A program made the position numbers and the translations under genes. Positions 15,329 through 62,173 of a DNA stretch of 64,000 nucleotides are shown here, piece by piece. The first letter of the stretch is position 1. Every line of letters starts with the position of its first letter. This DNA is from Mariannaea sp. PMI_226. Taxonomy: Eukaryota; Ascomycota; Sordariomycetes; Hypocreales; Nectriaceae. Location of the stretch: NCBI GenBank assembly GCA_024336345.1, contig JANFOG010000003.1, positions 2,548,501 through 2,612,500 of the forward strand, given 5' to 3'. The notes under the pieces are model-generated. The model had not been told where the DNA came from, ran no database searches, and worked only from the letters and a program-made list of their open reading frames with translations.

Positions 15329-18300
15329 ATGTCACAACCACAGAAGCGCCTGGTTGTCGTAGGGCTGGGCATGGTTGGCATCTCATTCATGTAAGTCATC
15401 CTCCATCTCAGAAAACGTCTTTTGATAGCCCAGCACTTACACGGCCAAAGTGAGAAGCTACTAAAATACGATGCAAAATCGCGAGAATACAACATCACTG
15501 TCCTCGGAGAAGAACCGTATCTAGCATACAATCGAGTCGGCCTCACAAGCTTCTTCGAGCATCGAAAAATCGAGAATCTTTATATAAATTCTGCGTCATG
15601 GGTGCGTCTCTCCTATTTCAATCCACCGCCCGACGTCATAAACTTAGCACTAACAAATTGAATAGTACAAAGAGACTCCTGTAGGATCTCTAGATTGCCA
15701 TGTTAACACCAGGGTCACGGGCGTTGACCGGTCAGTCAAAATGGTCACTTGTTCTAATGGCCAGACTTACCCATACGACATCCTCGTCTTGGCCACTGGC
15801 TCAGATGCAATTCTTCCTTCCACTGTCCCAGGGCACAGTGCCAGTGGTGTATTTGTATACAGAACCATCGATGACTTGGAGAGCCTCATTGGCTTCGCTG
15901 ACAGCAAAAGAGGAACCAATGGTGTCGTCATTGGAGGTGGTCTCTTGGGACTCGAAGCCGCCAAGGCAATGATGGACTTGGAACGATTCGACAAGATCAG
16001 TCTTCTTGAACGTTCAAAATGGGTCCTTTCCCGGCAACTTGATGCAACAGCAGGCCAGATGGTAGTTGATCAGGTCCGGGACCTCGGCGTGGACATCATT
16101 CTGGGCAAGGGCGTGGCAAGCATCAAAACCGATGAGACCAACCATGTCAAAGGCGTTGTCTTCGAAGACGGTCAGGAAATCGAGTGCTCTACCCTCTGCT
16201 TTGCTATTGGTGTGAAGCCCCGTGATGAGTTAGGCCGGGCCTCTGGCCTCGAGATTGCCCAGCGGGGTGGTATCATAGTTGACGACTCTTTGCGCACCAA
16301 CATCCCGGATGTCTATGCCATCGGCGAGTGTGCAAGCTGGCAGGGTATGGCCTACGGTCTGATCGGCCCTGGCGTGGAAATGGCAGAGGTACTTGCGTTT
16401 AACCTCACACAAGCGAAAATGCATTCGCCTCGCACATTCAAGCGACCTGACCTCAGCACGAAGCTTAAGCTACTTGGAGTAGACGTCGCCAGCTTTGGTG
16501 ACTGCTTCGCTGATACACACGGCCCCCAATCTCTTCCTCCCAAGTTTTCAAGGACCCTGAAGAATGGGAATGGCAAGGCCGCAGGGCTAGCAAATGGGGT
16601 TAAGACTGCTGCCGCCCTTACGCAGACTGTCCAGGCTCTCACTTACAAAGACCCCTTTTTGAATATTTACAAGAAATACATCTTCACCAAGGACGGAAAA
16701 TACCTCCTTGGAGGCATGATGATTGGTGACACCAAAGATTACGTGAAGCTCGTACCCATGGTTAAGACGATGAAGGAGCTAGACATGCCACCCAGCGAGC
16801 TTATCCTGGGTGCCAAGAAGGATGGTGACGATGATGACGATCTCCCAGACGATGCCCAAGTCTGCTCATGCCACAACGTCACCAAGGGTGATATTGTCAA
16901 GGTCGTCAAGGATGGCACTTGCAAGGATATTGCAACTCTCAAAACGTGCACAAAGGCGGGTACGGGATGCGGTGGCTGTATGCCCCTCGTCACAACCATT
17001 TTCAACAAGACTATGGCGGCTATGGGCAATACCGTAACCAACTACGTGTGCTCGCATTTCAACTACTCGCGCGTTGATCTCTTCAATATCGTCATGGTAA
17101 AGCGACTTAAATCTTTGAAGGAAGTGATGCGTGAGGTTGGCAACGATAAAGACAGTCTCGGTTGTGAGCTGTGCAAACCTGCCGTAGCAAGTATCATGGC
17201 GTCGCTCTGGAATAGGCACGTCATGGACAAGACTAGCCATGGCCTTCAAGACACAAACGACCGGTACTTGGGTAATATTCAACGAGACGGAACTTACTCT
17301 GTCGTGCCCCGTATGTCTGGTGGCGAAGTTACACCAGAGAAGCTAGGAGTCATTGCTGAGGTGGCCAAGAAGTACAACCTCTACACAAAGCTCACTGGTG
17401 GTCAGCGCATAGACATGTTTGGTGCGAAGAAGCAAGATCTCCCTGATATCTGGAGTGAGCTAGTTGCTGCAGGCATGGAGTCCGGACATGCGTATGCGAA
17501 GTCACTCCGAACAGTCAAAAGTTGTGTAGGATCAACATGGTGCAGATTCGGAATTGGCGACAGTGTTGGTCTGGCTGTTCGTTTAGAGGAGCGCTACAAG
17601 AGCATTCGAGCGCCTCACAAATTCAAGGGTGGTGTGAGTGGTTGTGTGAGAGAGTGTGCGGAGGCACAAAGCAAAGAGTATGTTCCTCTCCTGACCCTCA
17701 ATTCAGGCGTAACTAACCGCTGATTACCTAGTTTCGGACTGATTGCTACCGAAAAGGGGTTCAACATATTTGTCGGCGGCAACGGCGGTGCTAAGCCGAG
17801 ACACGCCGAACTGTTGGCCAAGGACGTCCCTCCGGCTGAGGTCGTGCCCATTTTGGATCGCTATGTGATGTTCTACATCCGCACCGCAGACAAGCTTCAG
17901 CGAACAGCCCGTTGGGTTGAGTCTCTACCTGGCGGCATCAAGTACCTGCAAGAAGTCATCCTAGAAGATAAGCTCGGCATCTGCGCATCCCTTGAAGCGC
18001 AGATGCAAGAGCTTGTGGACAACTTCTTCGATGAATGGGCAGAAGCAATTCGCACGCCTGCCATAGCCTCCAAGTTCAAGCAGTTCAACAATACCACTGA
18101 TACGATAGCCAATATGGACATGGAAGAGGACCGTGGCCAAAAGAGGCCTGTGTTCTGGCCTAGCAGCTCAGTGACAGAGGACTTCAAAAGCCTGGGCGAC
18201 AAATGGTCCAGCACGGCTTGGGAGCCTGTCATTGAAACGTCGTACTTTGACGGAGCTGACGACCTTCCCAACGGAATTTCGGCTACCATTAAACGTGGTG

Positions 18301-18815
18301 ACACCCAACTCGCCGTCTGGCGCATCCGGGGCACGTACTATGCCACTCAGCAAATGTGCCCCCATAAGCGCGCCTTTGTCCTCTCTGATGGTCTCATCGG
18401 CCAAGAACGCACGAACCCTGAGGCGAACGGTGTGATTGAGATTCCAAAGGAAAAGGCTTCCCTCTATGTCTCATGCCCGCATCACAAGCGTAACTTCGAT
18501 CTCGAGAACGGGTCCTGCAAGACCGACTCTGCGCTATCCATTGCCACGTTCCCAGCGGAAGCCCGCGGGGACGGTATGCTTTATATCAAATTGCCATCCA
18601 TTGAAGAGCTGGATGCTGCTCTAGGCACCAAGAAGTGGATGGTCAAAAAGGGTGAGAGCAAGGCGGCTGACCCCATGAATGCGCTGGACAAGCGCATCAA
18701 CTTCATTGGAATTCGAGGCAAGAAGCCAAGCGTACGGCCTTTGGTGGGCACCAAAATGACGAAACCAGTTGAACTAATGGTAGGAGGAGGATGCGGAAGC
18801 GCGCCGGACTGGTAG
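15329..18815 (+). CDS. niiA: assimilatory nitrite reductase [NAD(P)H], siroheme and Rieske type
   Basis: Reduces nitrite to ammonium in the cytosol. Exons 15329-15390, 15451-15601, 15666-17677 and 17732-18815 join to 1102 residues, the usual fungal NiiA size. In order: N-terminal FAD/NAD(P)H part ([53 protein letters not shown]), a [2Fe-2S] Bfd-like domain ([13 protein letters not shown] ... [13 protein letters not shown]), the siroheme/4Fe-4S core ([46 protein letters not shown], supplying the cluster cysteines), and a C-terminal Rieske-type domain (QMCPHKRAF ... [14 protein letters not shown]). The start codon is followed after 20 codons by an intron, as in other fungi. Upstream GATA and NirA-type sites suggest nitrate induction and nitrogen repression. 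Confidence 0.97.
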
Positions 18816-43123: not shown

Positions 43124-45124
43124 TCAAGGATGCTTAGCCTTTTTATGCCTCGTGAGCTTTGTCCTAGTGTAAAATGCCATTCCGCAGGTATCGCATGCAT
43201 ACGGCCTCTCCCCAGTATGACTTCGCATATGTACGGTCAACGTATCCTTACTGATGAATGCCTTCTCGCATAACTCACATTTATGAGGTTTCTCACCAGT
43301 ATGAATTTTCATATGTCGCGCAAGGCCGCCACGCTGAGTGAATTCTTTCTGACAGACCTCACACTTATATGGTTTCTCACCGGTATGAGTTCGCATATGT
43401 GAGGTGAGTTGGGTTTTTGAACTGCATGAGTGGCCGCAAATTTCACACTTATATTTGTCTCCCGCGTGAGCACTATGCATATGAGCATTGCGATTACTGT
43501 TGTTGTTGAATGCTTTACCGCACACCTCACACTTATAGGGTTTCTCTCCAGTATGAGTCAGCATATGTGCGTTGAGGGTCTTCTTCTCAGTGAAGCTCTT
43601 GCCACAGATCTCACAACTGTGAGGCTTTATTCCAGAATGAATTCGCATATGAACGGTGAGGTCTCCAGTCCTGCAGAATCCTTTCCCGCAAATCTCACAC
43701 TTATATTTATCTCCAGTGTGATTCCGCATGTGGGCGTCAAGGATCCATTCTGTATAGAATGCTTTGCCGCATATTTCACAGATGTGAGGCTTCTCGGTAT
43801 GAGATTGCATATGCCGTCTAAGGTAGAAATTTGAGCTGACCTCTTTCCCACAAACTGTACACTTGAAGGGCTTCTCCCCGGTATGAATCCGTATATGATC
43901 AGTCAGGTAGGATATTGTGTTGAACTCTTTCCCACAAATCTGGCACTTCAAGCTATTCCAGTAGTCATCGTCGATGGTATTCTGTTGGGCATTGTCCTCT
44001 GAAAAGCCTTCTTCGACACTATGTTTGTTGCGATAGTGCTGGACCAGTGAACCCATATTTGGCAAATTTTCGAGACAGCTGTCGCACTGGAAAGGACCAA
44101 GCATTTGACCGTTCACACCGGGGACCCATTCGTCGATTGCAATAAGCGGTATTTCAAATGATGGAATTGGTGGTTGTGGTATGAGATTTCGGTTCCACTC
44201 GCCCTTCCAAATTTGATTTCCCATTGACTTGTCGACTTTCCACAGTGGATGAGAAAGAGGCACCTGCCGAATAATGCTCAAAATATAAGCCCAGGACTTA
44301 TTTGAATAGTTGAACATTGTGTGGTTTGTAAACCAACTGTCGATGGTCACGGTAGCCGAGCTTAGGTCCATGTGGTGAGCTGGATCAAACGGATCATCCC
44401 CAGGGTTAGCCATTCCAAACTGCATGGCAATTCCATGGTCTGGCCCCTTGCAGAGAGAAGCCTTGAAAGCATGTGTCGTCCAAGGTACACATGGGAGGCC
44501 CCAACGATCGAGGAGATGGAAAGAGATTTCCTCCCAGTCTGCACCTGGCCGTTCTTCTCTGAGTCTTTGGATCTTCTGGCTCATGTGCGCTGCCATCCAG
44601 TAAATTAAAAGAGTGGCATCCACCCAACACTCTCCAAGCCCAGCTTTCTCTGCATGACGGTTGCACTCTGTTCTCATTATATTGAGCATATGATTGGCGA
44701 CTTTTTCTAGAATATGCCAATCCCACCCAATTGCTTCAGCTTGAGGCCTGGAGAGTATATAATAAGGGTAGAATACTCGGCGATCTGATCCCTGAGGCGA
44801 TGTAATCGTGCAGTAGTACTCAAACTCTTCAGATGTCAGGTCGTAGAAGGATGCAATCTTCAGAAGGGTATCGTAAACCTTTTGGAACCTGGGCAGTTCG
44901 TAGTCTGCCAATAATCCATGTTGATGGTTCATCCTCCAGTGACCCCGTTCAACATCTTGCAGGTGCAAGTGTTGTAATTCAGAGAGGGTGAGATCTACTA
45001 CGTTCTGTCGGGACCCAGTACGAAGGATTTCGAGGACCGCCTGTTGCTTTTCGGGGTCCCAAGCGTTCCACTTTGTCATCTTCTTCTCAGGCTTAGTCGA
45101 ACTGCATCCGAAAATGCGATTCAA
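43124..45124 (-). CDS. C2H2 zinc-finger protein with an 11-finger tandem array
   Basis: A single frame of 666 residues (an alternative start is Met16). Residues 1-350 form a domain rich in Trp and His with no recognised family (for example GWDWHILEKVANHMLN, CWVDATLLIYWMAAHM). Residues about 355-666 hold eleven C2H2 fingers: a divergent first finger (QCDSC...QHYRNKH), then ten close repeats of the CxxCGKxF...HxxxH type joined by TGEKP or similar linkers (TGEKP, TEKP, TGD, SGIKP, AGD, TGERP). Such long TGEKP-linked arrays are common in animals but rare in filamentous ascomycetes. Sequence-specific DNA binding in the nucleus is expected. No transposase domain or terminal repeats were recognised around it. 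Confidence 0.9.
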   Translation of the reverse strand: MNRIFGCSSTKPEKKMTKWNAWDPEKQQAVLEILRTGSRQNVVDLTLSELQHLHLQDVERGHWRMNHQHGLLADYELPRFQKVYDTLLKIASFYDLTSEEFEYYCTITSPQGSDRRVFYPYYILSRPQAEAIGWDWHILEKVANHMLNIMRTECNRHAEKAGLGECWVDATLLIYWMAAHMSQKIQRLREERPGADWEEISFHLLDRWGLPCVPWTTHAFKASLCKGPDHGIAMQFGMANPGDDPFDPAHHMDLSSATVTIDSWFTNHTMFNYSNKSWAYILSIIRQVPLSHPLWKVDKSMGNQIWKGEWNRNLIPQPPIPSFEIPLIAIDEWVPGVNGQMLGPFQCDSCLENLPNMGSLVQHYRNKHSVEEGFSEDNAQQNTIDDDYWNSLKCQICGKEFNTISYLTDHIRIHTGEKPFKCTVCGKEVSSNFYLRRHMQSHTEKPHICEICGKAFYTEWILDAHMRNHTGDKYKCEICGKGFCRTGDLTVHMRIHSGIKPHSCEICGKSFTEKKTLNAHMLTHTGEKPYKCEVCGKAFNNNSNRNAHMHSAHAGDKYKCEICGHSCSSKTQLTSHMRTHTGEKPYKCEVCQKEFTQRGGLARHMKIHTGEKPHKCELCEKAFISKDTLTVHMRSHTGERPYACDTCGMAFYTRTKLTRHKKAKHP

Positions 45125-45163
45125 GATTGAAACATTTGAAAGGGCATTGTATATCCAAGCCCA

Positions 45164-62027: not shown

Positions 62028-62034
62028 AAAAAAA
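62028..62034 (-). terminator. RNA polymerase III T-run terminator
   Basis: Seven consecutive T on the minus strand, beginning 9 nt past the 3' end of the tRNA-Phe gene, with a longer T-rich tract behind it. This is a standard Pol III stop. Confidence 0.6.
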
Positions 62035-62043
62035 TATGTTGTA

Positions 62044-62173
62044 TGCGGTTTATGTGGATCGAACACATGACCTTCAGATCTTCAGTCTGACGCTCTCTGT
62101 CAGTGAAGGTTAGTTTTTTGGTTCAACTGAGGGATTTTGTATTTGCAACATACCCCAACTGAGCTAAACCCGC
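62044..62173 (-). tRNA. tRNA-Phe (anticodon GAA) with a 57-nt spliceosomal-intron-like insert in the D-loop
   Basis: Read on the minus strand, 62173-62154 and 62096-62044 join to exactly 73 nt. They form a full tRNA: D-stem GCTC/GAGC, anticodon stem TCAGA/TCTGA with loop CTGAAGA (anticodon GAA, Phe), T-stem ATGTG/CACAT with TTCGATC loop, and an acceptor stem with one mismatch (G5/A68). Box A (TAGCTCAGTTGG) and box B (GTTCGATCC) are intact. Between tRNA positions 20 and 21 lies a 57-nt insert (62153-62097) that begins GTATGT, has CTAAC 16 nt before its end, and ends CAG. Normal nuclear tRNA introns sit at 37/38 and lack these signals. It may be a spliced gene or a pseudogene. Confidence 0.75.

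Follow-up and report, generated by a model that had tools for sequence, protein, structure and literature searches.

All eight tRNA-Phe genes detectable in the 42.2-Mb assembly of this fungus (25 contigs) were interrupted in the D-loop, between mature positions 20 and 21, by a short insert carrying the 5' splice site, branch motif and 3' splice site of a U2-type spliceosomal intron, and no intact copy was detected. Judging from sequence, it is very likely that the eight are functional tRNA-Phe genes and that their introns are spliced out by the spliceosome.

One of these genes lies on the minus strand of the window, i.e., the whole 64,000-nt stretch of DNA that was analysed (Table 1). Joining 62173–62154 to 62096–62044, with omission of the 57 nt at 62153–62097, produced a 73-nt tRNA-Phe(GAA), in which ARAGORN recognized the acceptor, D, anticodon and T stems and which equals yeast tRNA-Phe at 66 of 73 positions. 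Neither program detected the gene in its unspliced form: ARAGORN found no tRNA in the unspliced window and Rfam gave no match there at gathering scores. With introns allowed, ARAGORN still called none of the eight tRNA-Phe precursors as Phe (0/8), and spurious Lys and Cys calls appeared in two of them. The sequences TAGCTCAGTTGG and GTTCGATCC, which resemble the box A and box B consensus of Pol III promoters, were present in 8/8 genes, and a run of T5–T7 began 8–11 nt downstream of each gene. With a box A-like element in exon 1, a box B-like element in exon 2 and a T run behind them, transcription by Pol III is the natural reading. In the window insert the branch A stands 13 nt from the intron 3' end; the probability that a random insert of window composition would bear all three splice signals was about 3e-7 per register, only two registers being able to leave the 73-mer.

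The original prediction had proposed just this removal of 57 nt, with the stems left intact, as well as the T7 terminator 9 nt downstream (62034–62028, minus strand) and the intron signals GTATGT, CTAAC and CAG, and all of these were recovered. It had also seen a reason for caution in an acceptor-stem mismatch, G5/A68. The mismatch is real, but since all eight tRNA-Phe copies have it in common, it is no mark of decay in the window copy.

Table 1. Elements of the interrupted tRNA-Phe gene, in window coordinates.
Feature	Coordinates	Strand	Basis
tRNA-Phe exon 1, mature positions 1–20, 20 nt: acceptor 5' strand, D-stem 5' strand, most of D-loop	62154..62173	-	ARAGORN; identical in 8/8 genes
Box A-like TAGCTCAGTTGG, in exon 1	62166-62155	-	Exons identical in 8/8 genes; presumed consensus
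57-nt spliceosomal-type intron at mature positions 20/21, GTATGT...CTAAC...CAG	62097..62153	-	Same position in 8/8 tRNA-Phe genes found
5' splice site GTATGT	62148..62153	-	Signal in 8/8 genes
Branch-site motif CTAAC, putative branch A at 62110	62109..62113	-	Motif in 8/8 genes
3' splice site CAG	62097..62099	-	CAG in 7, TAG in 1 among 8 genes
tRNA-Phe exon 2, mature positions 21–73, 53 nt: D-stem 3' strand, anticodon arm, T arm, acceptor 3' strand, A73	62044..62096	-	ARAGORN; identical in 8/8 genes
Anticodon GAA, in exon 2	62083-62081	-	ARAGORN
Box B-like GTTCGATCC, in T arm of exon 2	62064-62056	-	Exons identical in 8/8 genes; presumed consensus
T7 run, probable Pol III terminator, starting 9 nt past A73	62028..62034	-	T run in 8/8 genes

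The size of the family was established by several genome searches. A 301-nt query around the window gene matched eight places (E 0.001), and the same eight genes, each with 0 mismatches, were returned by a 25-nt anticodon-arm pattern and by a 28-nt T-arm plus acceptor pattern, both of which allowed up to three mismatches and the second of which was able to reveal copies with a 37/38 intron too. The uninterrupted D-arm pattern, with up to three mismatches, occurred at 0 places genome-wide. The joined 73-mer used as a DNA query (E ≤10) gave no full-length copy in the genome; it matched exon 2 of the eight genes over 54 nt and, in one case, a 15-nt stretch of exon 1 (E 9.3). The anticodon-arm 13-mer AGACTGAAGATCT had 11 genomic occurrences, eight in the tRNA-Phe genes and three at other places, where tRNA context was looked for and none was seen. 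A covariance model combining the joined 73-mer with yeast tRNA-Phe matched all eight genes at full length with a long D-loop insert but, being made from the exons of these same genes, gives no independent support. The check for normal tRNA-Phe copies called for by the original prediction was thus run, and none of the eight genes found in the assembly proved intact. It is possible that an intact gene lies in unassembled sequence or beyond the divergence limits of the patterns. Viral contigs searched with two patterns as a cross-species test gave no match.

The eight genes occupy five separate loci: one on contig C6, one on C20, two on C19 at a distance of 2.2 Mb from each other (one being the window gene), and a cluster of four on C25 (944566–945954), packed within 1.4 kb, with one gene inverted relative to the other three. 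The anticodon loop was uninterrupted in 8/8 genes, position 37/38 being free of any insert. Among the tRNA hits examined (58 loci, 76 ARAGORN calls with repeats) there was no D-loop intron in other tRNAs and no Phe gene; since the tRNA family search scored only 63 out of 1269 initial candidates and both programs prefer genes lacking D-loop inserts, these hits do not amount to a survey of other isoacceptors.

The eight introns were 55–60 nt long and began with GTATGT (four genes), GTAAGT (three) or GTAAGA (one). All contained CTAAC, with the branch A at 12 nt (three genes) or 13 nt (five) from the 3' end, which was CAG in seven and TAG in one, so that a 5' site near GTAAGT/GTATGT, the CTRAY spacing and a 3' YAG of the U2 type were each found in 8/8. 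As the signals were scored on related copies, the number of independent events is below eight. In the alignment of the eight genes, 73/73 exon columns were invariant, as were 11/14 of the intron signal columns (5' site, branch motif and 3' site; p 2e-6) and only 4/43 of the non-signal intron columns (Fisher p 1e-26); four intron columns in which at least half of the rows had a gap were excluded from this count, and the p values serve only as a guide, the rows being related copies. The invariant intron columns were concentrated at GTA.G, CTAAC and AG. Mean pairwise identity was 0.70 for the introns (range 0.53–0.93), against 0.52 and 0.55 for the two flanks and 0.54 for shuffled introns. The introns thus appear to come from one ancestor and the surroundings to be unrelated, and the combination of identical exons, related introns and flanks at the shuffled level indicates strong constraint on these genes as tRNAs.

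This constraint bears directly on the question of whether the family might consist of pseudogenes, in which case an ancestral copy would have been killed by the insertion and its dead copies spread, Phe codons being decoded by an intact gene that the assembly lacks or that has diverged too far to be recognized. Inserts in the D- or T-arm that affect one of many copies are usually taken as pseudogenes, according to a review (PMC4090602), and the assembly may be incomplete. However, the decay expected of dead copies was not seen: all 73 exon columns were identical in eight genes at five loci, next to introns of 70% mean identity and flanks at the shuffled level, and no other Phe gene emerged from five genome searches, the three extra places of the 13-mer lacking tRNA context. 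We regard a pseudogene family as very unlikely. The same observations contradict the second of the two readings offered originally, in which a newly arrived intron had inactivated a single copy, since 8/8 genes are interrupted, their exons are identical and no intact gene was detected. The first, a tRNA that needs the spliceosome, gains from the inserts at 20/21 in 8/8 genes, the identical exons, the conserved signals and the lack of an intact gene, which together make spliceosomal removal the probable fate of the insert.

Two types of intron were distinguished by their 3' parts: five introns share the exact 19-nt end AACTAACCTTCACTGACAG, and three have GTCTAACCA...AG. Both types are present in the four-gene cluster on C25. 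The identical 19-nt end (window 62097–62115) exceeds what generic splice signals need, and it is a possibility, suggested by folding models, that it pairs partly with the anticodon arm. A recently spreading mobile intron (an introner-like element), present in tRNA genes by chance, would be expected to leave copies elsewhere, and several similar short introns do exist here; yet the 301-nt query, which includes the window intron, matched only the eight tRNA-Phe genes (E 0.001), so the original suggestion to look for other copies of the insert led to none outside this family. AACTAACCTTCACTGACAG occurred nowhere else in the genome at 0, 1 or 2 mismatches beyond the five genes, and at 3 mismatches it was met at six other places, fewer than the 13 of a reversed-pattern control, all such counts being lower bounds. 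Moreover, 8/8 introns sit at one tRNA position. A mobile intron of this kind is extremely unlikely.

The insert had originally been described as similar to protein-gene introns, and this likeness held. The tRNA-Phe intron signals agree with the protein-gene intron candidates of this genome and with the consensus from four Fusarium species (2022 introns), given as GTAAGT, CTRAY in 91%, Y93AG and lengths of 42–529 nt (PMC5677156); fungal branch-to-3'-end distances are put at 6–36 nt in another paper (PMC5832005). The genomic comparison set, obtained by joining long reading frames, is small and noisy: 9 candidates in the window versus 2 in a reversed-window control, and, with loci of >2 kb added under three open-frame limits, 12, 17 and 20 versus 3, 5 and 9. 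TTTT was absent from all eight tRNA-Phe introns. A purge of TTTT as proof of Pol III transcription was considered and dropped, the protein-gene intron candidates often being free of it too (5/9 in the window, then 8/12, 12/17 and 15/20, or 67–75%). Among the protein-coding features of the window are a nitrite reductase-like gene (15666–18815) with Pyr_redox_2, BFD, NIR_SIR and Rieske domains, with a change of frame inside the NIR_SIR domain near 17723 such as an intron produces, and a 679-codon reading frame with many tandem C2H2 zinc fingers (43124–45163). The named proteins most similar to one of the window's proteins came from Thelonectria olida (82%), followed by Neonectria (76–77%), which puts the fungus near Nectriaceae.

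Alternatively, the insert might be a tRNA-type intron at an ectopic position, with the tRNA splicing endonuclease making the cuts and tRNA ligase sealing the exons, as happens in Cyanidioschyzon merolae and Crenarchaeota; the GT...CTAAC...AG pattern would then be coincidental. Archaea are known to have non-canonical tRNA introns at 20/21, and both nucleomorphs and C. merolae have tRNA introns in the D-arm (PMC4090602, PMC9602550). The enzyme itself should be present in this fungus, as other isotypes (Met, Ile, Ala, Thr, His and Ser) have anticodon-loop introns according to ARAGORN, and some intron-exon pairing was predicted near the junctions. Against this stand the absence of a strict bulge-helix-bulge (BHB) in 8/8 precursors in both registers; a central helix of only 0–1 of four pairs in the GT-AG register and 1–2 of four in the other; a probability no higher than 0.020 for any single pair between the two junction regions; the lack of a covarying pair in the consensus fold; and a conservation that falls on the U2-type signals. 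Removal by the endonuclease is accordingly judged unlikely.

In the minimum-energy folds of the eight precursors, most copies had the D-arm paired with segments from the middle of the intron; the 3' splice site was located within or beside a hairpin formed with exon 2. The D-arm duplex was stronger than the shuffle mean in 8/8 precursors, with p below 0.05 in only three (0.000, 0.023 and 0.043; the rest 0.063–0.29), and for the 3' hairpin p was 0.10–0.13 in five copies and 1 in three. The RNAalifold consensus of the eight genes contained no covarying pair, and its pairs touched the intron only in the first three intron bases. With such shuffle statistics and no covariation, a conserved precursor structure was rejected as a result and kept as a suggestion only. 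The folds also predicted loss of the D and anticodon stems in the precursors, but the mature 73-mer was likewise not a cloverleaf in the same program, which makes this predicted loss weak evidence. Intron-exon pairing may keep the D-arm and the anticodon arm open until splicing. Two further routes of removal were rejected. Cleavage of the Ire1 type, as for HAC1 mRNA, was dropped because the loop at the 3' site appears unlike the Ire1 loop motif. Self-splicing was set aside because an intron of 55–60 nt would be too small for it.

The only U6 match found in the genome (47 of 2720 candidates scored; contig C2, around 1227814–1227909) contains a 56-nt insert, GTTAGT...CTAAC...CAG, just before ACAGAGA. 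The Rfam U6 model aligns its 5' end into this insert, and a U6-like 5' part was recognized upstream of it. Introns of this kind in Pol III-type genes are therefore not foreign to this fungus. The U6 insert also contains a box B-like GTTCGAATCCC, resembling that of a tRNA T-arm. Scoring of 39 among 1191 candidates for 5.8S rRNA gave a single match (C12, 3713567–3713721), which looks degenerate, like a decayed rDNA copy, when compared with the fungal 5.8S sequence.

We propose that each tRNA-Phe gene is transcribed by Pol III from its internal A and B boxes to the T run, and that the insert at 20/21 in the D-loop would act as a U2-type spliceosomal intron. After recognition of the 5' site and CTAAC, the spliceosome would form a lariat at CTAAC and join G20 to A21, the 73-nt tRNA body being released before or alongside end processing; once G20 and A21 are joined, the cloverleaf would be able to form. 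The shared position, together with introns that are still recognisably related between flanks that are not, suggests a single intron gain in an ancestral tRNA-Phe gene, followed by spread through gene duplication.

As every detectable tRNA-Phe gene carries the intron, decoding of Phe codons would depend on the spliceosome. The evidence leans, with less assurance than for splicing itself, towards the strong form of this proposal, in which cytosolic Phe decoding in the lineage is wholly spliceosome-dependent: the Pol III precursor would be spliced via a lariat, the tRNA-endonuclease route would be unused for this isoacceptor, and the spliceosome would gate translation through the supply of tRNA-Phe. 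The 20/21 intron is probably common to related Nectriaceae, where we suggest that it has been overlooked because tRNA finders expect introns at 37/38. Should the proposal be correct, it would join two splicing worlds and place translation under a new kind of dependence on the spliceosome; it would also show that a Pol III tRNA precursor, which has to adopt the cloverleaf fold afterwards, can be a substrate of the spliceosome. For annotation it means that programs can miss a whole isoacceptor, as the lack of ARAGORN Phe calls illustrates, while the intron gain and a possible swap of splicing systems in a known gene family are directly testable across fungi. In the open-licence literature, titles and abstract beginnings among the matches listed mentioned no spliceosomal introns in nuclear tRNA genes.

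A close parallel is provided by fungal U6, where the host is again a small RNA gene of the Pol III type and the intron is again short, with GT...CTAAC...AG. U6, however, is a component of the spliceosome, whereas the host here is a tRNA, all found copies of which are affected and whose D-loop is broken between box A and box B. An mRNA-type intron was reportedly described in the Schizosaccharomyces pombe U6 gene by Tani and Ohshima in 1989, and fungal U6 introns are said to have been surveyed by Canzler et al. in 2016. In common teaching, the introns of nuclear tRNAs form a class of their own that the tRNA endonuclease excises. Such canonical introns likewise reside in nuclear tRNA genes, including other isotypes of this genome, but they are placed at 37/38, in contrast to the introns at 20/21 described here, which are 55–60 nt long and of the GT-CTAAC-AG type. 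The Neurospora tRNA-Phe bears a 37/38 intron, and the eight genes of this fungus have none.

Introns outside 37/38, including in the D-arm and at 20/21, are also known in the tRNAs of C. merolae, nucleomorphs and Crenarchaeota, and the tRNA-Phe(GAA) of the Guillardia nucleomorph has two introns (PMC4090602, PMC9602550). In archaea and C. merolae these introns are tied there to the tRNA endonuclease and the BHB (PMC4090602, PMC9602550), whereas in the present genes the strict BHB is absent and U2-type signals are present. For nucleomorph tRNA introns the review calls the mechanism unknown, and it notes that a eukaryotic tRNA gene with an insert in the D- or T-arm is in most cases a single one among many copies, nucleomorphs and C. 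merolae being the exceptions (PMC4090602). Two papers refer to fungal U6 introns (PMC5832005, PMC9518982), and one of them, dated 2017, states that among small structured RNAs only U3 and U6 are known to have introns often (PMC5832005). The fungal U3 snoRNA introns, as characterized in that paper, are likewise short, spliceosomal and restricted to few positions, with GTRWGT, CTRAC and YAG in a structured RNA host (PMC5832005). U3 is, however, not a tRNA, and in eight of the genomes surveyed there intron-bearing and intronless U3 copies are found side by side (PMC5832005), whereas 8/8 copies are interrupted here. Spliceosomal introns in Pol III RNAs are thus known, and the new element suggested by the present genes would be an entire essential tRNA family as their host, as far as the assembly shows.
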